Shown: piece by piece, positions 2,582 to 19,959 of the stretch
Layout: each line of letters begins with the position of its first letter
Position numbering within the stretch: the first letter of the stretch is position 1
IMG/VR virus record: IMGVR_UViG_3300044695_004066
Location: 1-21,459 of that record
Reading direction: 5' to 3' (one strand)
DNA from: a virus
DNA length: 21,459 bases
Translations under genes and position numbers: made by a program
The notes under the pieces: model-generated
Told to the model about the DNA's origin: nothing
The model's database searches: none
What the model saw: the letters and a program-made list of their open reading frames with translations, nothing else

Positions 2582-2866
2582 TCAAACTATATCAGTACCA
2601 GTTTCGTCTGTCACTATGTCTGAGAGCGCGACACGCACTCCCTGAATAGCGGTGTTCAATGTATCGTAAACCGTGAAGGATTTGTAGTTCAGGTTTTCGA
2701 CTACGTTCTCTAAGGAGTTGAGCAATTCCGTAAGCTGTTGAAGCTGGGTTGTCTGCGAGGTGGTCAAGCCTGCTCTCACGGGTCCATAGGGTGATAAGGC
2801 ATTTTCTTTCACCCTTGGTATATCCAAGTGCTCTTGAGTAACTAATGATAAGTGACCTGTTCTCAC
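2582..2866 (-). CDS. possible coiled-coil protein overprinted on the transglycosylase gene
   Basis: This 94-aa reading frame lies almost wholly inside the transglycosylase gene, in its +1 frame. Its start signals are strong: GTG 2866 forms a GTGA overlap with the stop of the upstream gene, and GGAGG sits six bases before it. The predicted protein has a heptad-like helical stretch, TQLQQLTELLNSLENVVENL, near residues 41-60 and ends in an acidic segment. Against it, the other frame is clearly a conserved enzyme and open frames do arise by chance. If real, it is a nested gene, as seen with Rz/Rz1 in other lysis cassettes. I do not recognise a family. Confidence 0.4.
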   Translation of the reverse strand: MRTGHLSLVTQEHLDIPRVKENALSPYGPVRAGLTTSQTTQLQQLTELLNSLENVVENLNYKSFTVYDTLNTAIQGVRVALSDIVTDETGTDIV

Positions 2867-2999
2867 GCTTTTCCTCCATCGTTGCCTTGGTTCGGATCGG
2901 CTTGGGTAAAGGTAGTTCCCCTAGCTTTTGTACGTGTAGTAATAATAGGGTCAATAGTATTACCGTTAATATCAATCCACGTTTTACCTTCTTGCTCAT
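2592..2999 (-). CDS. membrane-anchored lytic transglycosylase (SLT-like domain)
   Basis: This 135-aa protein probably cleaves peptidoglycan. A basic N-terminus and hydrophobic segment (about 8-23, GLILTVILLTLLLLHV) form a signal anchor, so the enzyme should act outside the cytoplasmic membrane. The SLT-like core has RKCLITLWTRESRLD with candidate catalytic E75, then NPASTAYGIAQ (84-94), GLRYIEHRY (110-118), C123 and a terminal NWY, as in short phage transglycosylases. Segment 120-132 differs from the usual AW.FW pattern. ATG 2999 has AAAAGG six bases upstream. A shorter start at ATG 2879 would drop the anchor. The gene overlaps its upstream neighbour by 137 bases in another frame and almost wholly contains a further open frame. 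Its place at the end of the leftward operon suggests lysis. Confidence 0.8.
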   Translation of the reverse strand: MSKKVKRGLILTVILLTLLLLHVQKLGELPLPKPIRTKATMEEKRENRSLIISYSRALGYTKGERKCLITLWTRESRLDHLADNPASTAYGIAQLLRERSRKPELQILHGLRYIEHRYSGSACRALRHSDRRNWY

Positions 3000-3147
3000 C
3001 ACTCACCTTTTCCTTCTCCAGTAATTCTTTGTAGTCTTCTGGGTGCAGGTGAGAGAGCTTGATTAAAGCCCTGTCCCTAGCTCTTCGGTAGTTACGGTAA
3101 TAGACAGCTGCCTTTGCAGCACTCGCCATTCTCTTCTCATCTGTCAT
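2863..3147 (-). CDS. conserved-type phage hypothetical, basic helical protein
   Basis: This 94-aa protein is not assigned a function. It begins MTDEKRMASAAK and has a strongly basic helical part (YYRNYRRARDRALIKLSHLH, about 16-35) followed by an acidic stretch and a GKTWIDINGN strand near residue 55. The general pattern is familiar from actinophage hypotheticals. ATG 3147 is chosen over an upstream TTG because AAGAAG lies four bases before it. It overlaps the tiny membrane gene by 11 bases. Its last 137 bases are shared with the transglycosylase gene in another frame. Confidence 0.6.
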   Translation of the reverse strand: MTDEKRMASAAKAAVYYRNYRRARDRALIKLSHLHPEDYKELLEKEKVSDEQEGKTWIDINGNTIDPIITTRTKARGTTFTQADPNQGNDGGKA

Positions 3148-3220
3148 TGATCTTCTTATCCAATACAATAATCAAGTAAGCAATCAACATTACAGCTGCT
3201 AGTCCTAGTGCATATGTCAT
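3137..3220 (-). CDS. 27-aa single-span membrane micro-protein
   Basis: A 27-codon frame starts at ATG 3220 within an ATGA overlap with the stop of the upstream gene. The product is one hydrophobic helix (LGLAAVMLIAYLIIVL, about 5-20) followed by a charged tail DKKINDR, the layout of a small inner-membrane protein. It lies two genes upstream of the transglycosylase, so a holin-like or lysis-accessory role is possible. At 27 residues it is below the usual size of holins. Coupled start, clear hydropathy and overlap with the next gene support translation. Confidence 0.5.
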   Translation of the reverse strand: MTYALGLAAVMLIAYLIIVLDKKINDR

Positions 3221-3468
3221 ACTCCCACCGCCAACGCTGCATAGATAACCTTAGTTATATCCAACGACTGTCCTACTAGGTGAGCATCTTCCTCATCACT
3301 ATCCCAGCCTGAGACTAGAAGCCTACAGTTAATAGGGCTGCGTCTTAGATATTCGATAGCTTCATTGGCACTGTTGCCACCCCAAATCGCCTCACCCTTC
3401 TCATCTACTACTTCATATAGGTTGATAAGTGTGGATACGCGAGGGTGAAATGCAATTATCTCACTCAT
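3217..3468 (-). CDS. hypothetical protein, 83 aa
   Basis: I do not recognise this protein. It begins MSEIIAFHPRV, has a mixed strand/helix pattern (LINLYEVVDEKGEAIWGG, then ANEAIEYLRRS) and an acidic DSDEEDAH segment near 56-63. The layout is that of a small globular cytosolic protein. ATG 3468 has GGGGGAG just upstream, inside the end of the preceding gene, with which it overlaps by eight bases. Its stop overlaps the next ATG. Confidence 0.6.
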   Translation of the reverse strand: MSEIIAFHPRVSTLINLYEVVDEKGEAIWGGNSANEAIEYLRRSPINCRLLVSGWDSDEEDAHLVGQSLDITKVIYAALAVGV

Positions 3469-3712
3469 TCTCCCCCTGCCCTTCTACATTCTCTTTGATT
3501 ATATCGTTGATAGTCTTCTCTACAGCTGGCGTATCTGATGACAGCGAGATCTTAGATAGTGCTTCACCTAACGCTGTTCGCCAGTTGCTACCTTCTCCAG
3601 CTGCCAGCGGGGTAGGTTCACCACCACTGAAATCAAAGAGCTCTACCTTATTCCATTTCTGCCCTGCCTGTACCACCACTGTAATAACGTGGGTAATTGT
3701 ATCTTCTGTCAT
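3461..3712 (-). CDS. hypothetical protein, 83 aa
   Basis: This is an unrecognised 83-aa protein starting MTEDTITHVITVVVQAG. It has a beta-rich first half (VITVVVQ, KVELFDFSGG), then a helical second half (WRTALGEALSKISL and VEKTINDIIKEN), and ends in VEGQGENE. The acidic Gly/Glu tail is written over the GGGCAGGGGGAGA ribosome site of the next gene. ATG 3712 follows directly on the TAA of the upstream gene. Confidence 0.65.
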   Translation of the reverse strand: MTEDTITHVITVVVQAGQKWNKVELFDFSGGEPTPLAAGEGSNWRTALGEALSKISLSSDTPAVEKTINDIIKENVEGQGENE

Positions 3713-3874
3713 TTACTCACCCTTCCCTTCTGAATATGTATCGATCATAGATAGTGCATAGGTCATTCTCATTAGGTTCATTCCCGCTTCCTTCTCCGTC
3801 TCTTCCTCTTGTATCTGTATCAGTGCAAGGTCACGACATAGATCGGCCTTAGCTTGCCAGTATTCTTTATTCAT
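3713..3874 (-). CDS. hypothetical protein, 53 aa
   Basis: This small, mostly helical, acidic protein starts MNKEYWQAKADLCRDLALIQ and has a central EEETEKE cluster. It ends EGKGE, another Gly/Glu tail that coincides with the ribosome site of the following gene (GGGAAGGGTGAG). ATG 3874 shares one base with the preceding TAA (TAATG). No family is recognised. Confidence 0.55.
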   Translation of the reverse strand: MNKEYWQAKADLCRDLALIQIQEEETEKEAGMNLMRMTYALSMIDTYSEGKGE

Positions 3875-3993
3875 TACTCACCCTCTACACTTACATAATA
3901 GGCTTGTAACCCGCTTGCATAATAAATCTCTACCCCGCACTTACATAAGGATACGCCAGGTATATCGGTAGCCTTATAGTTATGAGTATGCAT
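3874..3993 (-). CDS. hypothetical 39-aa protein with a CxC pair
   Basis: A 39-aa frame starts MHTHNYKATDIPG and has one close Cys pair, C17-x-C19 in SLCKCGVEIYY, with His at 2 and 4. That could form a metal site, but this is not certain. It ends VSVEGE over the ribosome site of the next gene. The start is in a TGATG overlap and the stop in a TAATG overlap. Coupling to both neighbours is the main reason to accept it. Confidence 0.5.
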   Translation of the reverse strand: MHTHNYKATDIPGVSLCKCGVEIYYASGLQAYYVSVEGE

Positions 3994-4151
3994 CACTCTC
4001 CCTCTCCTTCTGTTGGTAGTACTCTACCCTTAAAATCGGTACTGATTATCTTGATATCCTCTTCCCCTATGTAAAGGTTACCCCAGTCCCACTGCCTAGG
4101 GTCACCGTCATAAGTCTCTATCTCTAGTGTTACTAGCCACCTATCTTTCAT
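3993..4151 (-). CDS. hypothetical protein, 52 aa
   Basis: This is a 52-aa protein of unknown function. It opens with a strand-rich part (MKDRWLVTLEIETYDGD), then WDWGNLYIGEEDIKIISTDF, and ends TEGEGE on the purine-rich ribosome site of the next gene. Its ATG shares one base with the TAA of the zinc-ribbon gene upstream. Its composition is that of a small beta-rich soluble protein. Confidence 0.55.
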   Translation of the reverse strand: MKDRWLVTLEIETYDGDPRQWDWGNLYIGEEDIKIISTDFKGRVLPTEGEGE

Positions 4152-4288
4152 TAGCCAACCCTTTCCCACGCACTGTTTAGCTCAGCGCACTGCCACTCAC
4201 CGCAGCCTTCGCACACTACATCTCCAACACTCATAACTAGCACAAGGTAGTCACCGTGTCCGCACTTATCACACTCATATTCCTTCAC
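4151..4288 (-). CDS. 45-aa zinc-ribbon micro-protein
   Basis: This 45-aa product has two CxxC knuckles, C6-x2-C9 (YECDKCGHGDYLVLV) and C26-x2-C29 (VVCEGCGEWQ), plus C34. The spacing fits a single zinc ribbon with nothing else attached. The start is GTG 4288, in a GTGA overlap with the preceding stop and with GGGGGAG upstream. Target or partner is unknown; such knuckles can bind nucleic acid or protein. Confidence 0.6.
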   Translation of the reverse strand: MKEYECDKCGHGDYLVLVMSVGDVVCEGCGEWQCAELNSAWERVG

Positions 4289-4422
4289 TCTTCTCCCCCT
4301 TCACAAGCGTCACAATCGGGTTCAGCTTCGTTGCGCTCAGCTTCATAGTCTATGAGAGCACCGTCTAACCCTTCCCCACAAGGTAGGCAAACCGATAACC
4401 CATTCTCTAACACCTTCATCAT
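4285..4422 (-). CDS. 45-aa acidic protein with two CxxC pairs
   Basis: A 45-aa protein beginning MMKVLENGLSVCLPCGEG. Pairs C12-x2-C15 and C37-x2-C40 are separated by a very acidic helical spacer (DYEAERNEAEPD). A zinc-bound hairpin is likely. It ends EGGEE, overlapping the ribosome site and GTG of the next gene. ATG 4422 lies in a TGATG overlap; a second ATG follows at 4419. Confidence 0.55.
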   Translation of the reverse strand: MMKVLENGLSVCLPCGEGLDGALIDYEAERNEAEPDCDACEGGEE

Positions 4423-4589
4423 CACCCTTCCCCTCTCATAATCTGCGGTAGGTTTAGCAATCGTCTCACTTGCGCGAGCTGATCCAACCTGCCTTGATAG
4501 TAGTTACGGTCACTACTCTCCGTTCCAGTACTCAGTCTCTTTAGTACCCATTCTGCCTCTACATTTAGGAACTGCTCCAGCTCTTTCAT
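4422..4589 (-). CDS. hypothetical helical protein, 55 aa
   Basis: This 55-aa protein appears to be all helix: MKELEQFLNVEAEWVLKRLS, a polar turn with Ser/Asp/Arg, then a second amphipathic helix (GRLDQLAQVRRLLNL). It could form a helical hairpin or dimer. It ends MRGEG, read from the AGGGGAAGGG ribosome site of its neighbour. Both ends are in TGATG overlaps. No family is recognised. Confidence 0.55.
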   Translation of the reverse strand: MKELEQFLNVEAEWVLKRLSTGTESSDRNYYQGRLDQLAQVRRLLNLPQIMRGEG

Positions 4590-4693
4590 CACTCTTCCTG
4601 CCCTTCTAGTCGCTGCTTAATAGCTTGTTTAATCTTCTCGTTGGTATCTGTATCCATTCCCATTACTACGATATGCGTATCAGCCCAGCTCAT
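4589..4693 (-). CDS. hypothetical 34-aa protein
   Basis: A 34-codon frame giving MSWADTHIVVMGMDTDTNEK, a short helix of KQAIKQRL type, then the tail EGQEE. Too short for any fold call. It is accepted because ATG 4693 shares a base with the preceding TAA, its TGA shares a base with the next ATG, and no other frame fills the gap. Confidence 0.5.
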   Translation of the reverse strand: MSWADTHIVVMGMDTDTNEKIKQAIKQRLEGQEE

Positions 4694-4707
4694 TACGCTA
4701 CCGCCTT
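4691..4707. repeat. 17-bp repeat at gene 3' end, copy 1
   Basis: CATTACGCTACCGCCTT here is identical to 5822-5838. Both cover the last codons (KAVA-type ending), the TAA and the next ATG of a leftward gene pair. Confidence 0.75.
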
Positions 4708-4845
4708 AGCTTTACACCCGTTGCACACTATGCCTACACCGATCTTAATTGTGTAGCTGGGTAACCTCTTGCCATTACTTAGCGTTACATATAACGCTTC
4801 ATTACTGTTGCATTCCATACATACGGGCTTGATTTTTTTGCTCAT
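4693..4845 (-). CDS. 50-aa zinc-knuckle protein
   Basis: This 50-aa protein begins MSKKIKPVCMECNSNEALYV and has C9-x2-C12 and C41-x2-C44 (VCNGCKAK) around a basic strand-rich middle, a typical zinc-ribbon spacing. The basic charge would fit nucleic-acid binding. ATG 4845 overlaps the previous stop as ATGA, with GGAAGGGG upstream. Its end (KAKAVA) uses a 17-bp sequence also found at the end of the gene at 5824-5970. Confidence 0.6.
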   Translation of the reverse strand: MSKKIKPVCMECNSNEALYVTLSNGKRLPSYTIKIGVGIVCNGCKAKAVA

Positions 4846-5192
4846 TCTTCTTCCCCTTCCATAGCTGCATTCTTCTCCAATAGCTGGCGCACTAGCTCAG
4901 CTGCTGCCACCACTCCCGCTGCGTGGGCTTCTTCCAGTGCTTTATTACTGTATCTGCTGCAAGGTATAACACTCACGCGATCCATTACATCTATGCCCTG
5001 CCGCCAGCGTTCCATAGTAAAGCTGCCACTGTAAGTAATACTGCACTCTTTAACTACCGTCACGATAGCCTTGCTCCCCTTATAGTGAGAGGTATATACC
5101 TTCACCCTTCTCCCATTCTCTAGGTCATAGGTATCAGTAGCCTTGCGGCCTATGAAATCAGTGAACCTCTTGCATTCTGTAGCTGTAATCAC
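4842..5192 (-). CDS. hypothetical protein, 116 aa
   Basis: This is one of the larger leftward products and I cannot name it. The first two thirds are beta-rich (GRRVKVYTSHYKGSKAIVTV and further strands), followed by an alanine-rich helix (ALEEAHAAGVVAAAELVRQL) and the tail EGEEE. The start is GTG 5192, directly after the preceding TAA, with GAAGGGTGAG upstream. It looks like a small alpha/beta cytosolic protein. Confidence 0.6.
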   Translation of the reverse strand: MITATECKRFTDFIGRKATDTYDLENGRRVKVYTSHYKGSKAIVTVVKECSITYSGSFTMERWRQGIDVMDRVSVIPCSRYSNKALEEAHAAGVVAAAELVRQLLEKNAAMEGEEE

Positions 5193-5318
5193 TTACTCAC
5201 CCTTCTCTTCTGTCATAGTTAGAATATAGCCGCGCTCTAGCCCTTCAATATAGGCGTCTAGCACTGCCATAGCTGTATCTTTATCCCACTGCTTAGGCAT
5301 AGTGATATTTATACTCAT
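5193..5318 (-). CDS. hypothetical protein, 41 aa
   Basis: A 41-aa frame: MSINITMPKQWDKDTAMAVL, then a helix (DAYIEGLERGYILTM) and the tail TEEKGE over the next ribosome site. It abuts both neighbours without a gap (TGA then ATG 5318; TAA then GTG 5192). An AGAAGGGCAGGG ribosome site precedes it. Function unknown. Confidence 0.5.
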   Translation of the reverse strand: MSINITMPKQWDKDTAMAVLDAYIEGLERGYILTMTEEKGE

Positions 5319-5471
5319 TCACTTTCCCTGCCCTTCTAGATAGCACTCAGTAATCGTTCCCCAGCACCAACCATCACCAACCCAGTTGATATGGCCTGAA
5401 GCGTAGAATATGGCAGCTAGTAGCAGCACGATAGCTACTGCTCTGACTCTCTTTCCTCTTCTAGTAATCAT
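5319..5471 (-). CDS. small single-span membrane protein, 50 aa
   Basis: A 50-aa protein with a very basic start (MITRRGKRVRAVA), one transmembrane helix (AVAIVLLLAAIFYASGHI, about 11-28) and a polar outside part with two cysteines (C37, C44), ending LEGQGK. The positive-inside rule puts the N-terminus in the cytoplasm. ATG 5471 (TGATG overlap, GGAAGG upstream) is preferred to a TTG further upstream. The part played at the membrane is unknown; superinfection exclusion or lysis help are guesses. Confidence 0.6.
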   Translation of the reverse strand: MITRRGKRVRAVAIVLLLAAIFYASGHINWVGDGWCWGTITECYLEGQGK

Positions 5472-5824
5472 CACTCTTCCTTCCCGTTTACTGTATCCTG
5501 CCAAACTTTATTTCCCCAATCTGGGTGTGACCTGAAGCAGCTGCCATAGTATGCAACATCTCCAAGGTCATCACAGTGAACCCCAGTAAGCTCCCCTTTG
5601 ATAGATACCTTCCCGCTTCTAGTGAATATCCTGCGGACTGTATAGGTATCATTCCAAGCGCGGTCAATAGTCAAGCTGTACCCGTTGCTAATCGGTAAAG
5701 TGACGCCAGTGCTGCGCTTGATTACTCTCCCGCCACTTATAGCGAATAAATTATCTCTTCCCAGCTGCTCTATAGTCTCGGATATATTGCACTCTCTGAA
5801 CTCTTCTAGCTTTGTATCTTGCAT
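5471..5824 (-). CDS. conserved-type phage hypothetical, 117 aa
   Basis: This 117-aa protein begins MQDTKLEEFRECNISETIEQ. A beta-rich core follows: GGRVIKRSTGVTLPISNGYS, then IDRAWNDTYTVRRIFTRSGK, then ELTGVHCDDLGDVAYYGSCF. The core resembles actinophage hypotheticals I have seen before, but no function is attached to them. It ends VNGKEE on the ribosome site of the membrane gene. ATG 5824 sits in a TAATG overlap. Confidence 0.65.
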   Translation of the reverse strand: MQDTKLEEFRECNISETIEQLGRDNLFAISGGRVIKRSTGVTLPISNGYSLTIDRAWNDTYTVRRIFTRSGKVSIKGELTGVHCDDLGDVAYYGSCFRSHPDWGNKVWQDTVNGKEE

Positions 5825-5838
5825 TACGCTACCGCCTT
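5822..5838. repeat. 17-bp repeat at gene 3' end, copy 2
   Basis: Identical to 4691-4707. The flanking sequences differ, so the shared part is the junction itself, not the whole gene. Confidence 0.75.
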
Positions 5839-5970
5839 TGTATAGATACCGTAAGCAGCGTACAGCTTAGTGATCCGCTTTACTGCAGCTGCTGTCATTA
5901 CTGCCGCTGCTACTTCCTCGCCAGTCTCGATATCTACTAGGCGGATATAGCTCTTCTCTCTCCCTGCCAT
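5824..5970 (-). CDS. hypothetical basic protein, 48 aa
   Basis: This 48-aa product starts MAGREKSYIRLVDIETGEEV and continues with an alanine-rich helix (AAAVMTAAAVKRITKLY). It ends TKAVA from the same 17-bp end sequence as the gene at 4693-4845. ATG 5970 has AAGGGG seven bases upstream. It is the first gene after the second hairpin element, so it may head its own transcript or translation unit. Confidence 0.6.
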   Translation of the reverse strand: MAGREKSYIRLVDIETGEEVAAAVMTAAAVKRITKLYAAYGIYTKAVA

Positions 5971-6060
5971 TTTTTACCCCTTCCAAGGTAGGTTATTCCT
6001 AGTGCTTAGCCCTAGGCCATTCCTTACGGTATAGCTACCGTAAAGAATAGTCAAGCTCTA
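5971..6060 (-). repeat. intergenic hairpin element, copy 1
   Basis: This gap shares three blocks with 6707-6796: TACCCCTTCCAAGGT (5975-5989), TAGCCCTAGGCCA (6007-6019) and TAGTCAAGCTCTA (6048-6060). Between the last two lies a 13-bp stem, 6019-6031 with 6036-6048, with a TAGC loop and one G-U in the leftward RNA. Read leftward, the upstream stop TAG opens the element, then TTGACT, the hairpin, a CCTAGGGCTA block and the ribosome site. TTGACT followed after 17 bases by TACCGT could be a promoter overlapping the hairpin. Confidence 0.6.
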
Positions 6061-6420
6061 AGCTACTTCACGCGCTAGGCGTGGCGCATTCTCTCCCAGC
6101 TCTTCAGTGTCTGCAATATCAAACACATATCGCCAGCTGAAGCGCATTTTATCCTCTCCCGCTTCAGTGGTATAGCTGCCAGTAGGCACGAGAATAGCTG
6201 CGCCGCTGCTCCCCTTCTTTACGCTTCTTCCTGCGCTCTTCCAATCGTGGAAGCCAGCGCATTTCGTAGCTGTAGGCTTCTGCCATAGAATTAGAAGCCC
6301 ATTCCTCACGCTGTAATCTTCAAGCAGCGTAGTAGGTACTACAGTGCCGCGCTCTTCCATAATCTCCACTGCGTCAGCTAGTGAGCGTATAAATGCGGCC
6401 TTCTCTTCCTTGCTTCTCAT
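6058..6420 (-). CDS. ArdC N-terminal-domain (antirestriction-type) protein
   Basis: This 120-aa protein matches the N-terminal domain of ArdC antirestriction proteins, which binds single-stranded DNA and can help incoming DNA escape restriction. Diagnostic parts are YSVRNGLLILWQKPTATKCA (about 36-55), GFHDWKSAGRSVKKGSSGAA (56-75), a strand ILVP, and RYVFDIADTE near 96-105. Full ArdC proteins also have a metallopeptidase domain with HExxH; it is absent here, and the protein stops just after the first domain. It lies between two copies of the hairpin element with one partner gene. A role in countering host defence is a fair inference but untested. Confidence 0.8.
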   Translation of the reverse strand: MRSKEEKAAFIRSLADAVEIMEERGTVVPTTLLEDYSVRNGLLILWQKPTATKCAGFHDWKSAGRSVKKGSSGAAILVPTGSYTTEAGEDKMRFSWRYVFDIADTEELGENAPRLAREVA

Positions 6421-6424
6421 ATGC

Positions 6425-6706
6425 TTACTCTCCCGCCAGCTCTAACACTGCCCAGCTGCTGTTAGCGTTCAAGCGTTCAAGCTCAGCTGTAATCTCTTCC
6501 ACTGTAGAATTCTCAGTAATTGTAGAGATATCCCGCAAGGCTCCCGCGTTCATAGTATTGAATATGCCAGCGGGTAGATTTAGGATACTCGCTAAATAGC
6601 TGCTGTTTATACTCACCTTGCTATTGTAATTCTTTCCAGCGTAAGTAAATGGGAAATATACCCACTCAACAGCTGTCTCGCCCTTTACTTCTAGTGCTGT
6701 ACTCAT
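6425..6706 (-). CDS. hypothetical protein paired with ArdC-like gene, 93 aa
   Basis: This 93-aa protein is unrecognised. It begins MSTALEVKGETAVEWVYFPF, with strands TYAGKNYNSKVSIN, a turn (LNLPAGIFN) and a C-terminal helix (VEEITAELERLNA). ATG 6706 is chosen over the longer frame start because GGAAGGGG sits just upstream and it follows hairpin copy 2. Four bases separate its stop from the ArdC-like start, so the two are one unit between hairpin elements. Confidence 0.6.
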   Translation of the reverse strand: MSTALEVKGETAVEWVYFPFTYAGKNYNSKVSINSSYLASILNLPAGIFNTMNAGALRDISTITENSTVEEITAELERLNANSSWAVLELAGE

Positions 6707-6796
6707 TCTATACCCCTTCCAAGGTTTAGGATCTTTTCCTAGGCTAGCCCTAGGCCAGCGGCCAGCTCTTACGAGCTGGCAGCTAGTCAAGCTCTA
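6707..6796 (-). repeat. intergenic hairpin element, copy 2
   Basis: This is the second copy of the element at 5971-6060, with TACCCCTTCCAAGGT at 6711-6725, TAGCCCTAGGCCA at 6744-6756 and TAGTCAAGCTCTA at 6784-6796. Its hairpin has a different sequence but the same place: GCCAGCTC (6761-6768), loop TTAC, GAGCTGGC (6773-6780), an 8-bp perfect stem. CCTAGG occurs at both ends of a short dyad at 6738-6754. TTGACT is present on the minus strand but has no good -10 at 17 bases. Confidence 0.6.
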
Positions 6797-7039
6797 GCGT
6801 AGTGCTTCTATATCTGCCGCGTCTAGGTTAGTATCGTAGCTGTGGCCGCAATTAGGGCAGCTGATAGCTGCTAGGAAGCTGTCACCGTAAGGCTCTAGCC
6901 ATATAAACGCAGCTGGGCTATTGCATTCCTCGCAGATAGCTTTATGCTTCACAGTCTCTTCCTTAGCTGGCTCGCATATGCATAACCAAGCTACTTGGCC
7001 GCAGCTGTCGCAATAGTCAGCATTCACAGTCGTGTCCAT
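6794..7039 (-). CDS. double zinc-ribbon protein, 81 aa
   Basis: This 81-aa protein has two putative metal sites. The first uses YCDSCGQVAWLCIC (residues 9-22). The second uses ICEECNSPA (about 35-43) and SCPNCGHSYD (about 60-69), a classical ribbon. ATG 7039 is preferred over ATG 7066, because GGGAG lies upstream inside the neighbouring gene and the longer start has no ribosome site. It overlaps that neighbour by 23 bases. Its stop TAG is the first codon of hairpin element copy 2. Likely a nucleic-acid- or protein-binding adaptor. Confidence 0.6.
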   Translation of the reverse strand: MDTTVNADYCDSCGQVAWLCICEPAKEETVKHKAICEECNSPAAFIWLEPYGDSFLAAISCPNCGHSYDTNLDAADIEALR

Positions 7040-7133
7040 AGTAATACTCTCCCGCTTCCTCTTCATTAAGTAAGTCGAATATTCTGCCGCATTCTATGCA
7101 GCGGGCGCGTGTCTGTAGCTTGAAAGTCTCCAT
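7017..7133 (-). CDS. 38-aa cysteine-containing micro-protein
   Basis: A 38-aa frame giving METFKLQTRARCIECGRIFD, then an acidic turn and GHDCEC. It has C12-x2-C15 and C36-x-C38 with H34 nearby, enough for one zinc site. ATG 7133 is one base after the preceding stop. The frame contains the ribosome site of the following gene. Confidence 0.5.
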   Translation of the reverse strand: METFKLQTRARCIECGRIFDLLNEEEAGEYYYGHDCEC

Positions 7134-7134
7134 A

Positions 7135-7302
7135 TCAGTAACCTTTCCTAGATAGTGCCACTATGCCAGCTAGTACGCTGACAGCTAGCAAGGATATAAG
7201 TGTGAATAGGATAGTGCTCTCATATGTCAGCGTTACGCTGGGTAAAATTGCATATAGATAAGCTGGCGTAAAAATAGCTATTGCCGCGGTTATGCTTCTC
7301 AT
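7135..7302 (-). CDS. two-span membrane protein, 55 aa
   Basis: A 55-aa protein with two hydrophobic helices: ITAAIAIFTPAYLYAILPSV (about 4-23) and LFTLISLLAVSVLAGIVAL (about 32-50), with a short polar loop (TLTYEST) and a basic end SRKGY. Size and topology would suit a class II holin, but it lies far upstream of the transglycosylase in the operon. ATG 7302 has AAGGGG seven bases upstream in a TAATG overlap. A role in altering the membrane early in infection is an alternative. Confidence 0.6.
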   Translation of the reverse strand: MRSITAAIAIFTPAYLYAILPSVTLTYESTILFTLISLLAVSVLAGIVALSRKGY

Positions 7303-7445
7303 TACTTTACCCCTTGAAGATAGGCGCGAGCAGCTTCCCGCTGGTACTCTTTACACTCAGCACACCAGCAGACGCATTCTGCGAGCTTACTGTCGGAAGC
7401 TGAGCACACTGGGTGCTGTCCGTTGATACAGTGCTTCTTCTTCAT
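7302..7445 (-). CDS. cysteine-rich micro-protein, 47 aa
   Basis: A 47-aa protein starting MKKKHCINGQHPVCSASDSK. It has six cysteines (C6, C14, C24, C26, C28, C31) and H5/H11, then a helix (EYQREAARAYL). The ECVCWCAEC cluster suggests one or two zinc ions. ATG 7445 overlaps the preceding stop as ATGA; its TAA overlaps the next ATG. Basic start and metal knuckles fit a small nucleic-acid-binding protein, without proof. Confidence 0.55.
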   Translation of the reverse strand: MKKKHCINGQHPVCSASDSKLAECVCWCAECKEYQREAARAYLQGVK

Positions 7446-7618
7446 AGACTTAACCCGCAAGCTGCTAGGAAGCGGGAAGAATTGAATCTAGGGTTATCAC
7501 TCTCTAATTCTTCAGCTAATCGCTGGGCAATATCTGCGCCTATAGTCTCCGATAGCTCGCATATATTCGAGAAGCTAGCGAATACGCCAGCTATTAGCTC
7601 GTAGTCTTTCCGTGTCAT
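7442..7618 (-). CDS. actinophage-type MTRKDYELIA small hypothetical, 58 aa
   Basis: This 58-aa helical protein begins MTRKDYELIAGVFASFSNIC and ends in LAEELESDNPRF...RFLAACG, a pattern I recognise from many actinobacteriophage genomes, where it is annotated as hypothetical. It supports an actinobacterial host. It is the first gene of the leftward operon, about 45 bases downstream of the -10. ATG 7618 has AGGAAAG upstream. Function unknown. Confidence 0.75.
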   Translation of the reverse strand: MTRKDYELIAGVFASFSNICELSETIGADIAQRLAEELESDNPRFNSSRFLAACGLSL

Positions 7619-7635
7619 ATCTTTACTCTTTCCTA

Positions 7636-7654
7636 CAGCTGAGCTCTTCAGCTG
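7636..7654 (-). promoter_or_regulatory. 5' leader hairpin of the leftward operon
   Basis: CAGCTGA (7636-7642) pairs perfectly with TCAGCTG (7648-7654) over a five-base loop. It lies between the leftward promoter and the first gene, the same position a hairpin holds in the two repeated intergenic elements. It may affect RNA stability or access to the ribosome site. Confidence 0.4.
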
Positions 7655-7662
7655 ATACCCTT

Positions 7663-7691
7663 AAAGTACGCTACCGTATGCAGCGTGTCAA
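7663..7691 (-). promoter_or_regulatory. main leftward promoter
   Basis: On the minus strand TTGACA (7691 to 7686) is followed after 17 bases by TACTTT (7668 to 7663), a perfect -35 and a TAnnnT-type -10 as used by actinobacterial housekeeping sigma factors. It lies just upstream of the first leftward gene and no other gene lies between. It probably drives the whole micro-gene operon. Confidence 0.6.
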
Positions 7692-8070
7692 GCTAATAGC
7701 TGCGATATTAGGTAACAATATGGTAACGATTAGCTGAGAATTAGCTGTGAGATCTTAGCCCTAGAAGCTAGAAGCTGGCAGCTGTAAAGCTGCGCCAGCT
7801 GAGATAGCTGCGCCAGCTGGCCGCTGGGATAGGCCGCGAGAATAGCTAGCTAGCTGTCAAGCTGTAGGCATTTATTATATTAGGGTATAGAGACATATAG
7901 GGGAGAGGGTAGCCGATAGGGTAGCCTACCCAGCGGGAAATGCTATACGGTATAGTACAGCTGCAATAGCTGTAATAGCTGCAGCAGCTGCGCCAGCTGC
8001 GGCGAGCAGACCCCTAGGTGTTAAGTTTAGTGCGTGTGTAGTGTATGTACCCTCTACAGATATATTTCCT

Positions 8071-8090
8071 AAAGTGAACCCAGTCACTTA
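8071..8090. promoter_or_regulatory. operator-like dyad 1
   Basis: AAAGTGAACCCAGTCACTTA contains the dyad AAGTGA/TCACTT with six bases between. It is closely related to the site at 8117-8136, 46 bases downstream, and lies between the divergent operons. It probably binds a dimeric phage or host regulator. Confidence 0.55.
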
Positions 8091-8116
8091 TTAATGTCCT
8101 ATTTTGTACACATATT

Positions 8117-8136
8117 AAAGTGACCTTAGTCACTTT
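8117..8136. promoter_or_regulatory. operator-like dyad 2
   Basis: AAAGTGAC (8117-8124) and GTCACTTT (8129-8136) form a perfect 8-bp inverted repeat around CTTA. Together with dyad 1 it makes a two-site operator. It overlaps the -35 of the possible rightward promoter, so binding there would repress. Confidence 0.6.
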
Positions 8137-8149
8137 CCGTAAATACTTT
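8120..8149 (+). promoter_or_regulatory. possible rightward (late) promoter
   Basis: GTGACC at 8120-8125 and TACTTT at 8144-8149, 18 bases apart, use the same -10 as the leftward promoter. The -35 match is only partial. Its position just inside dyad 2 and ahead of the terminase leader is what makes it likely. Confidence 0.35.
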
Positions 8150-8157
8150 ATACCATA

Positions 8158-8184
8158 GGCAGGAAATGAGCTTTTTTTCCTGCC
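8158..8184. terminator. stem-loop with 9-bp stem downstream of the operators
   Basis: GGCAGGAAA (8158-8166) pairs perfectly with TTTCCTGCC (8176-8184) over a nine-base loop that contains part of a seven-T run. TTATAT follows. It could stop transcription in either direction or be the first stem of the late leader. Confidence 0.4.
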
Positions 8185-8340
8185 TTATATACAGTAGGGG
8201 CGGTAGTTATGATAGCCCCGTACAGCCTCGCTTCGGTCACCCTACGCGAGTCCCTAGGACGAGCCCTGACTTACCCCTCGCTACGCTGTAGCTTGCTCGG
8301 GAGTTTACGGTATCGGTGGTTGTGCAAAGCACAACTTTTA
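8185..8340 (+). other. GC-rich structured leader upstream of the terminase
   Basis: This stretch has several short stems: GGGGC/GCCCC (8197-8201 with 8215-8219), CTCGC/GCGAG (8227-8231 with 8246-8250), GTCC/GGAC (8250-8253 with 8257-8260) and GCTAC/GTAGC (8280-8284 with 8288-8292). It ends at an intrinsic terminator. Composition differs clearly from the neighbouring sequence. A leader RNA, a small RNA or a packaging (cos/pac) segment are all possible. Confidence 0.4.
8319..8339 (+). terminator. intrinsic terminator before the terminase gene
   Basis: GTTGTGC (8319-8325), AAA, GCACAAC (8329-8335), then TTTT. A 7-bp perfect stem with a three-base loop and T-run on the plus strand. It lies 47 bases before the terminase start, so late transcription must either pass it or start after it. 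Confidence 0.6.
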
Positions 8341-8385
8341 ATCGGGTGTAGTCTATCTATAACCCAATGAGATACTGGAGATCCA

Positions 8386-10245
8386 ATGGCTGAGAACTCA
8401 GCAGATATAGCAAAGCGAATCATCCTAGGATGTGTAGCTGAGGGTATGACCATTGAACAAGCCTGCCTATCGGCTGGTAAGTCTATGAAGACATACGAGT
8501 ACTACCGACGCACCGACAAGATCTTTACAGACAAGATTGATAGAACTCGCCTTGGGCTAAAGGATAAGTCCTTCGCGGCAGGCGATGTCCACGACATCTC
8601 ATTTGCCGAGTTCCGCCAACGCTTTCTAAACTCCAAGACCTTCCCCCACCAGCAGAACCTAGTGGATATGATCGAAGGCGTAGAACCTACCTGGCTGCAC
8701 CCTTCAATGAAGTTCGAGCAGGGTCTGGCCAATAACCGTATCCTTATTAACATTCCGCCAAACCACGCCAAGTCCATCACAATCACAGTGGACTACGTAA
8801 CCTGGCAGGTAGCCCGTAATCCTAACTTTCGTGTGCTGATTGTTTCCCAGACTCAGCAACTTGCCGCCGACTTTCTCTACGCCATCAAGCAGCGTTTGAC
8901 TCACCCTATGTATGAGAACCTTCAAAATGCTTATGCTGCTGGCGTAGGGTTTAACTCTAAGTCTGCTTCCTGGCAGGCTACCCGTATCACCTTTGGTGAT
9001 GAGCTTCGTGAATCCTCTGAGAAGGATCCTAATATCGAAGCCGTTGGTATCGGCGGTCAGATCTACGGCAAACGTGCCGATATGATTATCGTAGACGATG
9101 CTGTCACTCTTAAGAACGCCAATGAGTTTGAACGCCAGATCAAGTGGCTGACCCAGGACGTACGTTCTCGTCTTAACCCTACTGGTAAATTAATTATCAT
9201 TGGAACCCGCGTTGCTGCCGTTGACCTCTATCGAGAACTGCGTAACCCAGATCGCTATCCAGGTGGCCTAGTTCCTTGGAAGTACCTGGCTATGCCAGCA
9301 CTACTTGAAACAGATGAGGACCCTGACAAGTGGGTTACCCTGTGGCCAGCATCCGATGCTCCATTTGATGGGCAAGAAGAATCAGATCTTAATGAGGATG
9401 GACTATACCCAAGGTGGAATGGTCGTAACCTCTATAACGAACGTCAAGCAATGGACGCATCTACTTGGGCGCTGGTCTACCAGCAACAAGATATTTCAGA
9501 TGATGCCATATTCGATCCAGTATGTGTGAGAGGTTCCATTGATGGTATGCGTAAGGCGGGTAGGTTGGTTCCTGGTCATCCAGGCCATCCACGCGATGTC
9601 AATGGCTTTTCTTTTATTTGCGGTCTTGACCCCGCTATGGTTGGTGATACAGCCGCCGTTTGTTACGCTATTGATCGGGTTACTCATAAACGTTATATCG
9701 TTGATGCTATTAAGATCACTCGCCCTACGCCTGCTCAAATCCGTCAGCTAATCTTTGATTGGACTTCCCTCTATAGTCCTAGCGAATGGATTGTGGAGAA
9801 GAATGCGTTTCAATCTTTCCTTACGCAAGACGAAGGCATCCGTGCCAACCTTGCAAGCCGAGGCGTGTTACTGCGAGAGCATCACACGGGTAACAACAAG
9901 TGGGACTCAGGTTTCGGTGTTGCGTCTATGTCAACATTGTTTGGCACCAAGCAACACGATGGAAAGCACCACCGCGATAATTTAATTCATATGCCTAGTG
10001 ACCAAACTGAAAACATTAAGGCAATGATTGAACAATTAATTACTTGGTCCCCAACGACCAAGGGTAAAACAGATATGGTAATGGCGTTGTGGTTCTGTGA
10101 GATCCGCGCCCGTGAAATGCTTAACCAAGGTATCCACGCTGTACACCATATGAAAAACCCATTCCTGTCTCGTTATGAACAGGGCAAGCGAACAGTCATT
10201 AACATTGATGAACTGCTCGCAGAGAAAGATCGCACATTTATCTAA
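8386..10245 (+). CDS. terL: terminase large subunit with N-terminal HTH-like extension
   Basis: This 619-aa protein is the DNA-packaging motor and nuclease. The ATPase part has a variant Walker A, IPPNHAKS (123-130), a Walker B, MIIVDDA (233-239), and a coupling motif GTR (273-275). The nuclease part has D415 (CGLDPAM), E471 (WIVEKNAF) and D563 (KTDMVMAL), the usual acidic triad. Residues about 7-57 look like a helix-turn-helix (AEGMTIEQACLSAGKSMKTY) as found in small terminases, and no separate small-terminase gene is seen. ATG 8386 has GGAG five bases upstream. The portal gene follows at ten bases. Confidence 0.93.
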   Translation: MAENSADIAKRIILGCVAEGMTIEQACLSAGKSMKTYEYYRRTDKIFTDKIDRTRLGLKDKSFAAGDVHDISFAEFRQRFLNSKTFPHQQNLVDMIEGVEPTWLHPSMKFEQGLANNRILINIPPNHAKSITITVDYVTWQVARNPNFRVLIVSQTQQLAADFLYAIKQRLTHPMYENLQNAYAAGVGFNSKSASWQATRITFGDELRESSEKDPNIEAVGIGGQIYGKRADMIIVDDAVTLKNANEFERQIKWLTQDVRSRLNPTGKLIIIGTRVAAVDLYRELRNPDRYPGGLVPWKYLAMPALLETDEDPDKWVTLWPASDAPFDGQEESDLNEDGLYPRWNGRNLYNERQAMDASTWALVYQQQDISDDAIFDPVCVRGSIDGMRKAGRLVPGHPGHPRDVNGFSFICGLDPAMVGDTAAVCYAIDRVTHKRYIVDAIKITRPTPAQIRQLIFDWTSLYSPSEWIVEKNAFQSFLTQDEGIRANLASRGVLLREHHTGNNKWDSGFGVASMSTLFGTKQHDGKHHRDNLIHMPSDQTENIKAMIEQLITWSPTTKGKTDMVMALWFCEIRAREMLNQGIHAVHHMKNPFLSRYEQGKRTVINIDELLAEKDRTFI

Positions 10246-10254
10246 GGAGACACA

Positions 10255-12012
10255 TTGTTATCAACTAAAGAGGTCGCAGCGAAGGTAGCACGTCTACAAA
10301 CCCGCTACGCGGCACGTGACCAGAGAATGCGCGACGTGCTCTCTGTACGTCAAGGTGACATCTCCAAGGTATACCCAGCGATGTTTTCAGAGGAATACCC
10401 AAAGCCTCTAGTAGCTAACTTCGTAGATGTAGCAGCACGTGACTTGGCAGAAGTGATGTCTCCACTGCCATCCTTTAACTGCGCTGCTACCAATATGGTT
10501 TCTGACTCACAGCGTAAAGCTGCAGATACTCGTACACGTATTGCCAACTACTACGTATCATCTTCTGAACTACAGATCCAGATGTACACAGGTGCTGACT
10601 GGTTCAATACCTACGGTATGTTGCCAGCGTTAATTGAGATGGACTATGAAACCAATAATCCAAGAATACGCCTGCTTAATCCTTTTGGTACTTATCCTGA
10701 AATTGATAGATTTGGTCGTACCATCTCCATCACACAAGTCCTAGCAACTGATGCCGAGACATTGGCAATGCAGTACCCAGAGTTCTATGACCAGATTATG
10801 CCAAAGAATGTTTATTCTCCTGGTTCACCTTATGTGTCTTTGGTTCGCTACCACGACAAAGACCAAGACTTAATCTTTATTCCAGAGCGTAAAAACCTAG
10901 TACTAGCAAACATTCCTAACCCAGTAGGTAAGTGCCTAGGTAGCGTTGCTATGCGTTCATCTATTGATGGCGAAGCACGTGGACAGTTTGATGATGTACT
11001 TTCAGTTCAGTTAGCTCGTGCTCGATTTGCAGTATTGCAGATCCAAGCAGCAGAAAAATCTATCCAAGCACCTATTGCTATTCCACAGGATGTGCAAGAG
11101 TTGGCATTGGGACCTGATGCGATTATGCGTTCTGCAAATCCACAGGGTATTCGCCGTGTTCCACTAGAACTACCTAACGGAGTCTTTACTGAATCTGGTG
11201 TTCTAGAGCGTGAACTACGTACAGGTGCTCGTTACCCAGAGACTCGCTCAGGTAACATTGACGCATCTATCGTTACAGGCCGTGGTGTTCAAGCACTACA
11301 GGCAGGATTTGATACACAGATCAAGGCAGCACAAGCACAGTTTGCTCGTTTGTTTACAGACCTTGTTGCTATGTGTTTTGAAGTAGATGAGAAAGTCTTT
11401 GGTTCTATGACCAAGGAAATCAAAGGCGTAGATGATGGTACTCCGTTTAATATGAAGTACGTTCCATCACGTCAAATTGATGGTAACTATGGCGTAGATG
11501 TCCGTTACGGAATTATGTCAGGTATGGATCCTAACCGTGCCATCATTGCATTACTACAGATGCGTTCAGACAAGCTCGTATCTCGTGACTATGTACGTCG
11601 TGAGATTCCGATGGAGCTTAATGTTACGCAGGAGGAACAACGTGTTGATATTGAAGAAATGCGCGATTCTTTGCGGGTGGCTGTTGCTCAGTATGCTCAA
11701 GCCATTCCAGCGTTGGCAGCGCAAGGTCAAGACCCAAGTGAGATCATTTCCCGTATTGCAGAAGTTATACAAGGCCGTCAAAAAGGTCTTCAATTAGAAA
11801 ACGTAATTGGCAAAGCATTTGCACCTAAAGAACAACCAGCAGCTCCAGAGATGGCGATGATGCCAGGAGCACCAGGAACTCCAGCAGCAGGTGCGGCCCC
11901 CGTACCTGCCTCGCAGCCAACTCCAGAACAAAGCGGAGCGGCCCCTGCTGCTGGTCCAGAACAACGTCCAGATATAGCAACTCTGCTAGCTTCTATAAGC
12001 GGCGCAGCATAA
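10255..12012 (+). CDS. portal protein
   Basis: This 585-aa protein directly follows the terminase and has the size of a portal, the dodecameric ring through which DNA enters and leaves the head. Features are a helical N-terminus with a YPKPLVANFVDVAARDLAEV segment (about 48-67), a mixed core (LLNPFGTYPEIDRFGR near 140-155), a long helical segment around GRGVQALQAGFDTQIKAAQA, and a Pro/Ala-rich tail over about the last 65 residues. The start is TTG 10255, supported by AAGGAGA just upstream. The assignment rests on position, size and general pattern more than on a single motif. Confidence 0.8.
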   Translation: MLSTKEVAAKVARLQTRYAARDQRMRDVLSVRQGDISKVYPAMFSEEYPKPLVANFVDVAARDLAEVMSPLPSFNCAATNMVSDSQRKAADTRTRIANYYVSSSELQIQMYTGADWFNTYGMLPALIEMDYETNNPRIRLLNPFGTYPEIDRFGRTISITQVLATDAETLAMQYPEFYDQIMPKNVYSPGSPYVSLVRYHDKDQDLIFIPERKNLVLANIPNPVGKCLGSVAMRSSIDGEARGQFDDVLSVQLARARFAVLQIQAAEKSIQAPIAIPQDVQELALGPDAIMRSANPQGIRRVPLELPNGVFTESGVLERELRTGARYPETRSGNIDASIVTGRGVQALQAGFDTQIKAAQAQFARLFTDLVAMCFEVDEKVFGSMTKEIKGVDDGTPFNMKYVPSRQIDGNYGVDVRYGIMSGMDPNRAIIALLQMRSDKLVSRDYVRREIPMELNVTQEEQRVDIEEMRDSLRVAVAQYAQAIPALAAQGQDPSEIISRIAEVIQGRQKGLQLENVIGKAFAPKEQPAAPEMAMMPGAPGTPAAGAAPVPASQPTPEQSGAAPAAGPEQRPDIATLLASISGAA

Positions 12013-12028
12013 CTGAGGGAGGTGTAAA

Positions 12029-12172
12029 ATGAACAAAGGATCACGTGCAGCAGCACCAATGTCAAAGCCTGTAGAAGGTAAGATGGATACCGCCAAGCCA
12101 GCAGGACCAGGCAAGGTTGTACCATCAATGATGCCAGCAGGTCGCAAAGGTACAGCAGTAAAGAAGGGCTAA
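12029..12172 (+). CDS. small basic virion-block protein, 47 aa
   Basis: A 47-aa frame starting MNKGSRAAAPMSKPVEGKMD, rich in Lys/Arg (about ten), Pro, Gly and Ala, with no clear fold. GGGAGG lies eight bases before the ATG. It sits between portal and larger virion genes, so a small DNA-binding or assembly component is possible. No family is recognised. Confidence 0.6.
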   Translation: MNKGSRAAAPMSKPVEGKMDTAKPAGPGKVVPSMMPAGRKGTAVKKG

Positions 12173-12201
12173 GTAAATTTTAATTAACGGAGGTACTGGG
12201 C

Positions 12202-12423
12202 GTGGATAATAATAATAAAGTTCCACGCTCAGTAAACTTCGCTGATTTTTTAGTAGTCCTTTCAGGTTTTGCACACAACATTGCAAGTTCTGTACAGACT
12301 GCAACAGAAGAGTTAATGGAAATAGCTATCTATAATGCTAACCGTAACTCAGAAATTAATAAGGCTTGGGAACAATTTTCAAACGATTTAGAAAAGATAC
12401 AGGAGGATACCGATGGTAGATAG
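12202..12423 (+). CDS. hypothetical helical protein, 73 aa
   Basis: This 73-aa protein begins MDNNNKVPRSVNFADFLVVL and appears helical throughout (ASSVQTATEELMEIAIYNAN, then INKAWEQFSNDLEKIQ). The start is GTG 12202 with GGAGGT seven bases upstream. It overlaps the next gene by 11 bases and contains that gene's AGGAGG site. Function unknown; a small virion or chaperone role is suggested only by position. Confidence 0.6.
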   Translation: MDNNNKVPRSVNFADFLVVLSGFAHNIASSVQTATEELMEIAIYNANRNSEINKAWEQFSNDLEKIQEDTDGR

Positions 12424-12775
12424 CCCATTACAAATTGGCGGTCCAGGAAAATTCTCCGTACGTGAAGACCTACCACCGTCACAAAACTACGGTGATCGTA
12501 AGGCAATGGCAGAAGATATTGCAGGCGCTCCAACTACTGGACAACCATCTGCACGTCCAGCTCCTGCTAGTGAAATTAAAGAAGCAGTTAAGCCTGCCCC
12601 ATTAACACAAATGTTTGCACCAACCGAACGCACTGGCGAAGACGTTATGACTATGGCTGGTCCACCAAAGCCACCAGAAGGTAAGTTATCAGACACGCTT
12701 GCAGCATTACTTCCATACGATCAAACTGGAGAAATTTCTGTTCTCTATCAGATGGCTTTATCTAGAGGTCAGTAG
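12413..12775 (+). CDS. hypothetical Pro/Ala-rich protein, 120 aa
   Basis: A 120-aa protein with a low-complexity, proline-rich middle (TTGQPSARPAPASEIKEAVK), probably disordered, and a short helical end (LYQMALSRGQ). ATG 12413 has AGGAGG six bases upstream. Its TAG shares a base with GTG 12775 of the giant gene. A linker or scaffold-like virion factor is possible, but there is no family match. Confidence 0.65.
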   Translation: MVDSPLQIGGPGKFSVREDLPPSQNYGDRKAMAEDIAGAPTTGQPSARPAPASEIKEAVKPAPLTQMFAPTERTGEDVMTMAGPPKPPEGKLSDTLAALLPYDQTGEISVLYQMALSRGQ

Positions 12776-17550: not shown

Positions 17551-17551
17551 A

Positions 17552-18298
17552 GTGCCAGTAGGTAAAAGTAGCGGAGTAAGTAAGGTTGCAACACAGCCTT
17601 CTGCTGGAACAGCAGATGCCACTTCATCTGGTAGCTGGAACTCTGGTGGAATCGGTGACGTTTCTTACATCACATCAAGTATTCCTACTGCAGCAAATCC
17701 AAACAATGTAGAAAAGACTACTCAAAAGGAACTTATCCGTAAGTTCTTAGAGATGAGTCCACAGGAGCGCATTGGTATTGGTAATCGTCTCAAGGGTGCT
17801 GGGTATCAAGTAGGTGGATTAACTGGTCAAGCTACTAAGGACCTTCGTAACGCATACCTCAAGGCTTATGATGACCTTAATCAAGAGATTCTTATTGGCC
17901 AGCAATTAGATCTTAACACTTTCCTTACCCGTGAAAAAAGTGCTGGCGGTACTGGAGCACGTCAGCCTTATGTACAGTCACAGGAAATCAATGATATGTC
18001 TGCAAAGACTTTGATTGATGGGATTATCAAGGATCTAACTGGTCGCCCAAAGGCAACTCCAGAAGAAATTGAAAAATATACAGCGATGATTCGCAATCAA
18101 CAGAAGAAGAATCCACTGGTTACTTCATACACAACTAGCGGTGGAGACACTACTGGTTCAAGAACTACTGGTGGTTTTGGTGCTCAAGAAGCACAGCAAT
18201 TTTTAATTGACAAGATTTCACAGGGTGATGAAGCTAAGGCAACTCGTGCTTTGGATGCCTACTCAACTGTAGTAGAGATGTTTGGAGGGTTGCGCTAA
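17552..18298 (+). CDS. virion-type hypothetical, 248 aa
   Basis: This 248-aa protein has a Ser/Gly/Thr-rich start (about 1-45), a helical middle beginning TQKELIRKFLEMSPQERIGI, and a MSAKTLIDGIIKDLTGRPKA segment near 150. A Gly/Thr-rich stretch (TSGGDTTGSRTTGGFGAQEA) precedes the final helix. The start is GTG 17552, with GGAG seven bases upstream, right after the giant gene. Its TAA shares a base with the next ATG. Probably a minor structural protein, by context only. Confidence 0.6.
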   Translation: MPVGKSSGVSKVATQPSAGTADATSSGSWNSGGIGDVSYITSSIPTAANPNNVEKTTQKELIRKFLEMSPQERIGIGNRLKGAGYQVGGLTGQATKDLRNAYLKAYDDLNQEILIGQQLDLNTFLTREKSAGGTGARQPYVQSQEINDMSAKTLIDGIIKDLTGRPKATPEEIEKYTAMIRNQQKKNPLVTSYTTSGGDTTGSRTTGGFGAQEAQQFLIDKISQGDEAKATRALDAYSTVVEMFGGLR

Positions 18299-19956: not shown

Positions 19957-19959
19957 ATA

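Follow-up and report, generated by a model that had tools for sequence, protein, structure and literature searches.

The DNA analysed here, referred to as the window, is a stretch of 21,459 bp from the IMG/VR virus record IMGVR_UViG_3300044695_004066, and the subject of this report is a gradient of the tetranucleotide AGCT that rises along a leftward operon of small early genes to a maximum in the non-coding DNA ahead of the terminase gene. Read from left to right, the window carries a primase fragment and a sigma-factor gene on the plus strand, the leftward operon, a non-coding gap and the late genes (Table 1), and it includes the early-gene end of a phage from a large freshwater group. Judged by the terminase, the closest cultured relatives are the Planktophila phages LanE43AprE7 and LanE43AprF5 (46%; E7 and F5 below), both isolated on 'Ca. 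Planktophila', and the terminase of the Streptomyces Beephvirinae stands at 43%. Nearer relatives number in the hundreds and are known solely as metagenomic contigs, and for that reason the host is approached indirectly; we infer the host group to be the Nanopelagicales, a very abundant freshwater group. A prophage search for the host in genome_contigs returned no match.

A first-pass annotation had reported, from hand counts, that AGCT climbs steeply through coding and non-coding DNA alike and stops sharply before the operators. All seven of its counts (8, 21, 19, 26, 14, 23 and 2, in segments from 1-2500 through 8011-8385) were exact on recount, and the corresponding expectations for independent bases are 9.5, 7.9, 4.3, 3.8, 2.1, 1.5 and 1.4. 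The density reaches a maximum of about 50 per kb at 7619-8010 and declines to background across about 4.5 kb of genes and non-coding DNA; in the leftward operon it is about 33 per kb beside the promoter and near background at the far left end. When the sequence was shuffled with its dinucleotides preserved, 23 copies at 7619-8046 compared with 8.9 in the shuffles (z 6.2), and the excess continued leftward with z values of 2.9 (7081-7620), 2.9 (6061-7080), 1.6 (4850-6060) and 2.3 (2582-4850), against a deficit in the late region 8386-21339 (39 versus 82, z -4.8).

Since a high density of AGCT in itself inflates the flanking di- and trinucleotides, a shuffle of synonymous codons, in which proteins and codon usage are held constant, is the sharper test. 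It gave a twofold excess in the early genes at 4842-7618 (53 versus 26.8, z 7.1), a smaller one at 2582-4845 (20 versus 10.4, z 3.7) and a twofold deficit in the late genes (38 versus 76, z -5.6). A Markov background had been proposed in the first-pass annotation as a check. A maximal-order model of this kind absorbed much of the excess, since the trinucleotides AGC and GCT increase together with AGCT; even so, the observed/expected ratio came to 1.3-1.5 for the early region, compared with 0.5 for the late one. The shuffles rule out chance, composition, protein sequence and codon usage as the cause, and the gradient as a phenomenon is well supported.

Copies within coding DNA occupy all three codon positions, with the register xxA GCT favoured (38/20/15), and 30 of the 103 copies do not lie wholly within a gene. 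Around the sites only (C)AGCT(G) is conserved, with little shared flank beyond the 5' C, and TRF found no tandem repeats. The centres of neighbouring copies are 7-9 bp apart about three times as often as under random placement (12/3.7, 11/3.2, 12/4.0 and 9/3.1). The early promoter sits within the left edge of the non-coding array, and the bulk of 7619-8010 very likely lies upstream of it; the array is therefore more than a simple 5' leader, and most of it would escape early transcription. A structured RNA leader was rejected on local folding scores near zero (mean z -0.3 in the window). Together with the position of the array these scores argue for a role at the DNA level, and whatever reads the signal probably does so on DNA rather than RNA, at least upstream of the promoter. 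A signal in the early transcript, such as an anti-terminator or a site for Rho or another RNA-binding protein, would suit the strand asymmetry of the words in the RACC and TAACC lineages described below, but it is highly improbable with the flat folding scores and the densest part of the gradient mostly upstream of the early promoter.

Table 1. Features of the window (positions in bp from its first letter; a dot marks features without strand).
Feature	Position	Strand	Description or basis
Non-coding AGCT array	7619..8010	.	23 copies, (C)AGCT(G), favoured centre spacing 7-9 bp
Early block	3900..8000	.	Swapped as a unit, carries the word dialect; blastn breaks, recombinant L205
Leftward operon	2582..7618	-	About 24 small genes; open reading frames
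Non-coding gap	7619..8385		Between leftward operon and terminase
Early promoter TTGACA-17-TACTTT	7663..7691	-	Directly before first early gene; sequence; relatives have similar promoters
First early gene	7442..7618	-	58 aa; homologues in several dialects
ArdC N-terminal-domain protein	6058..6420	-	Anti-restriction family; PF08401, 26.0 bits (cut-off 22.6)
48-aa protein	5824..5970	-	In all AGCT- and GATC-dialect contigs examined; top of gene-dialect association scan
Putative direct terminal repeat/genome ends	7780..8047	.	Limits approximate; placed by position from WRightOn and Immanuel3 and by contig-start excess
CRP-like dyad operator AAGTGA-N6-TCACTT	8072..8089	.	Sequence; TGTGA-N6-TCACA forms in relatives and WRightOn
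Second CRP-like dyad AAAGTGACCTTAGTCACTTT	8117..8136	.	Sequence
Terminase large subunit	8386..10245	+	Opens rightward late region (AGCT under-represented); phrog_38, E 2.5e-63

The same gradient is common to 12 relatives, in which the density in 400-bp steps from the terminase runs 3.5, then 49.8, 32.9, 29.6, 23.3, 19.0, 13.9, 16.8, 15.7, 10.0 and 7.8, and on to 4-5 per kb; the sharp stop, from 49.8 to 3.5 per kb, thus lies about 400 bp from the start of the terminase gene. In relatives that share this AGCT vocabulary, or dialect, AGCT has a one-step exit rate of 0.117 in the early region, the lowest of 23 permutations of ACGT (mean 0.39). In the same genomes it is 0.305, an average value, in the distal region and 0.438 (20th of 23) in the late genes. 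Because the rates differ between regions, they cannot reflect some general property of the word; they speak for selection or for a bias specific to the region. The relatives do not count as independent samples, so that more weight falls on the ranks than on the numbers sampled. That selection acts on a bound or modified motif, one of three explanations offered in the first-pass annotation, is supported by this pattern of early retention and late loss, by the excess over the synonymous shuffle and by the spacing of 7-9 bp.

Other relatives, some of them 97-98% identical in the terminase, lack an AGCT gradient and show different words at that place, so the expectation of a gradient in related phages held for part of the group only. 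The vocabularies found at this location are GATC with GGCC; TAACC, TTAG and CTCT with CCGG; RACC, with TCGG, GGTC and CAGG on the plus strand, limited to about 1.2 kb; GGCC with CCAGG; or little at all. One vocabulary for all relatives is rejected, there being at least five and some relatives with none. A further one, an array of TCTGGT/CTGGTT, is seen at the same position at the start of L051, where that contig begins. Spacing of 7-9 bp is raised in the GATC/GGCC and TAACC arrays too, and less so in the RACC arrays.

Each vocabulary leaves its mark on composition. The symmetrised dinucleotide signature of the array has GC 1.88, AG 1.60 and AC 0.58 in AGCT phages, TA 1.70 in TAACC phages, and AA 1.55, TA 0.41 and GC 0.55 in L007-type phages; the signatures of the distal and late regions are nearly identical across the groups. 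Within the last 4-5 kb of AGCT and GATC genomes, the signature departs from the genome mean by a distance of 145-262, whereas the median is 84-90. The Streptomyces isolates show no raised distance at the early end, and their excess of CTTG follows the coding strand. Purine/pyrimidine and amino/keto patterns divide the lineages into two classes, from which no mechanism emerged. In the early regions of most groups GTC is depleted on the early-gene (mRNA) strand, in several of them to 0.00-0.46 of expectation, with GAC less affected; T7-type primases start at GTC.

A non-adaptive origin would account for several of these features. Regional mutation or copying tied to the genome end, by resection, error-prone end filling or microhomology copying, could give each lineage its own vocabulary, in keeping with the smooth decay with distance from the presumed end, the arbitrary look of the lineage-specific words, the lowered diversity of 5-mers and the distortion of dinucleotide signatures at the early end only. 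We consider it unlikely, however, because known context-dependent mutation biases come nowhere near a 13-fold excess over what independent bases would give, no matching gradient exists on the terminase side and the spacing of 7-9 bp is non-random. In addition, the AGCT copies share so little flank that they are not patches being copied. The loss of 5-mer diversity could also be read as the object of selection, if the first-entering DNA used few words and so offered few sites to sequence-specific defences until anti-restriction proteins were made. The number of distinct 5-mers per 600 bp falls from about 325 towards the end, to 265 (AGCT), 261 (GATC) and 243 (RACC array), and CATG and CCGG are missing from the early end as well. 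A drop of just about 20%, with little effect in the plain, L002 and AGCT-free lineages, makes this very unlikely.

The words lie in a segment that is exchanged between phages. When the window was compared by blastn with relatives of the same backbone and other dialects, similarity ended at about 3.9-4.2 kb and restarted at 7998-8008. In the natural recombinant L205 the early block matches the window at 85.6% identity across 1.6 kb and has retained the AGCT dialect, whereas the terminase matches a different clade at 94% and the window at only 79%; the region adjacent to the terminase likewise belongs with that clade. The dialect is thus inherited with the early block and not with the late-gene backbone. 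From these same-backbone pairs and L205 it follows that the late genes are unlikely to encode a reader of the words, while the block or the host can; a reader among the late or replication genes is argued against on the same grounds. The suggestion that the segment was recently acquired is correct insofar as a discrete block is present here and absent from same-backbone relatives, but its composition is not uniform and fading by amelioration: it is graded within the block, and the words are maintained.

Two indications suggest that the genome end lies here. The isolates WRightOn and Immanuel3, which share the window's order of sigma factor (plus strand), leftward early operon with anti-restriction gene, genome end and terminase, carry direct terminal repeats, 264 and 275 bp long, which stop just short of a CRP-like dyad, TGTGACCTGCATCACA. 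Moreover, among the 68 contigs with a visible start, 21 have it between 150 and 1000 bp upstream of the terminase, where breaks per kb are in four- to fivefold excess. The AGCT peak would accordingly correspond to the right terminal repeat and its flank in a linear genome, with the gradient running inward along the early operon, and the AGCT-rich end probably enters the host first, as in T7. The CRP-type dyads of the window (8072-8136) fall just inside the presumed left genome end, ahead of the terminase, and forms with TGTGA-N6-TCACA occur in the Streptomyces isolates too.

Two or more DnaA boxes (TTATCCACA) stand beside the presumed terminal repeat in L035, L036, L040, L205 and L222, 400-600 bp upstream of the terminase, which suggests an origin in those five relatives; the junction of L205 also lies near the array, beside its DnaA boxes. 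None was seen in AGCT-dialect phages of the window's backbone, so the proposal of an origin-type array finds a parallel next to the array of some relatives but not in the window. A packaging signal at the repeat may also be considered, in which the ring of the small terminase subunit would read the array, much like the short repeats at T7 ends, and the gradient would slow or end packaging. The location of the array, the restriction of the effect to one side of the repeat and a spacing compatible with DNA wrapped on a ring agree with this. The terminase gene, however, is shared by phages of different dialects with about 88-90% nucleotide identity, a level also seen among AGCT members, and AGCT copies inside genes as far as 4 kb away would be left unexplained; we regard such a signal as improbable.

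The general statement in the first-pass annotation that phages avoid short palindromes proved strikingly true: CATG (82 expected) and CCGG (54 expected) are both wholly absent from the window, and CATG is absent in nearly every relative examined. G009 (L285-L286; 39.5 kb, probably complete with an end overlap of 127 bp) lacks AGCT, CATG and CCGG and belongs to an AGCT-free group. E7 and F5 lack exactly five 4-mers, all of them palindromes (AGCT, CATG, CCGG, GATC and GGCC), each expected about 195-297 times over both genomes. Such elimination suggests that phages of freshwater actinobacterial hosts are under intense pressure from restriction. The early-end words AGCT, GATC, GGCC and CCGG are all among the 4-mers absent from sister phages, which suggests a link to restriction-modification.

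The main rival explanation is built on this link. The words would be targets of methyltransferases circulating in the hosts, and a word that is safe, being methylated or unrestricted, would accumulate at the entering or packaging end; in variants, methylation gates packaging or replication as at P1 pac, or the array titrates a host methylase. Besides the shared words (CCGG being that of the TAACC lineages) and G009 with no AGCT in its whole length, the frequency of palindromes overall, which goes from about 0.7-fold in the late region to 1.0- to 1.8-fold in the early regions of these dialects, and an ArdC-like gene inside the early block are in line with it. On the other hand, a relaxation of restriction predicts a onefold frequency and not a 13-fold one, the non-palindromic TAACC and RACC are not avoided in E7 and F5, and G001 gave no match to C5 or N4/N6 methylases (PF00145, PF01555). 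The overlap, noticed after the fact, is the most concrete lead to the reader, yet it leaves the 13-fold excess and the non-palindromic dialects unexplained, and on balance we hold this explanation to be rather unlikely. G001 (L280), an AGCT-dialect genome, carries at the far end of its early operon a fragment resembling a Dam-like N6-adenine methyltransferase (38377-38853, minus strand; PF05869, below cut-off on 60 aa), and no such gene was noticed in the window.

The genes common to AGCT blocks encode the 48-aa protein, a 117-aa unknown and the ArdC N-domain protein, none of them a clear word-specific binder. The 48-aa protein came out first in a gene-dialect association scan that was uncorrected for phylogeny or multiple testing. 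It has a predicted beta-beta-alpha-beta fold (mean pLDDT 90) with no significant match in the PDB, the best by TM-score being the anti-CRISPR AcrIC9 (TM 0.73, E 3).

The explanation that we tentatively favour treats the words as cis-sites, at which a factor linked to the block or supplied by the host would act, starting at the genome end and moving inward. They would serve as low-complexity binding sites at intervals of 7-9 bp; the DNA-binding factor would load at the end and then spread inward across the early operon, so that the incoming end is protected, organised or silenced. Different blocks would have different factors and hence different words, each co-evolving with its block-encoded or host partner, and density would drop with distance, since the sites that count most would be those close to where the factor loads. 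Several observations weigh against this. Terminal repeats and entry polarity are drawn from isolates whose terminase is only 43% identical, the relatives are non-independent samples, and the low loss of AGCT could also stem from region-specific mutation bias. L020, L035, L057, L060, L002 and L004 evidently survive with little or no dialect, and the words of the RACC lineage are strand-asymmetric and spaced 4-9 bp, unlike the palindromic dialects. Finally, 4 bp is a low-information site, and scanning the block genes against Pfam gave no recognisable dialect-linked DNA-binding protein, the best association (the 48-aa protein) being without a significant structural match.

A bolder form, possible but doubtful, is that each early block has a private dialect of short words, read from the end inward by a block-specific factor, and that the dialects are an interchangeable identity code telling near-identical phages apart, for instance in superinfection exclusion, end protection or methylation-gated packaging. 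To our knowledge no identity code of that kind is known.

Whatever reads the words, one genome keeps a 4-bp palindrome at one end and sheds it elsewhere, and sister phages lack it or use another word at that spot. Such a contrast is unusually clean evidence for a position-dependent function at the DNA level and an exception to the usual avoidance of short palindromes by phages. The natural swaps make the reader tractable to find. Early ends of this sort can also mislead host prediction based on composition and calls of foreign DNA.

No description of such a gradient, with words that are maintained and interchangeable and that run through early genes, came to light in the open-licence papers searched; its parts resemble several known systems. 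The early end of T7 enters the cell first, and arrays of short repeats (SRL and SRR) lie near its terminal repeats. Common to both are short words beside an early operon with an anti-restriction gene, near a direct terminal repeat that is putative in the present phage (placed from the isolates L293/L294 and contig starts). The heptamers of T7 stand in short non-coding arrays, however, and the present words are not confined to such end segments, being 4-bp words that extend across some 4.5 kb of genes and vary from one near-identical phage to another. The stoperators of L5-like mycobacteriophages, asymmetric sites of about 13 bp in a few dozen mostly intergenic copies tied to immunity specificity, are likewise lineage-specific words concentrated in early regions. 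They differ in having a long asymmetric consensus with a cognate repressor gene; here only (C)AGCT(G) is conserved, and no repressor gene was identified. At P1 pac, an array of about seven GATC sites in a short segment is gated by methylation by a phage-encoded Dam. The window would resemble it in having dense 4-bp sites, possible methylase targets, at a putative packaging end; it differs in having a gradient on the kilobase scale, and no matching methylase was found in G001.

For an end-nucleated nucleoprotein, p6 of phi29 provides a model: it nucleates near the genome ends and wraps the DNA with regular contacts, but it reads bendability every 12 bp and no sequence word (PMC10899789). A Pfam scan of the block genes revealed no p6-like DNA-binding protein. 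Arrays of short repeats close to phage ends are known already. So is over-representation of palindromes, from the subcluster B3 mycobacteriophages, in which GATC and GGATCC are about fourfold over-represented, as yet without explanation (PMC4841201). Those phages share with the present ones an excess of palindromes in one phage subgroup against the usual avoidance; there it is genome-wide, and here it is local, graded from one end and set against a deficit in the rest of the genome, with several alternative words.

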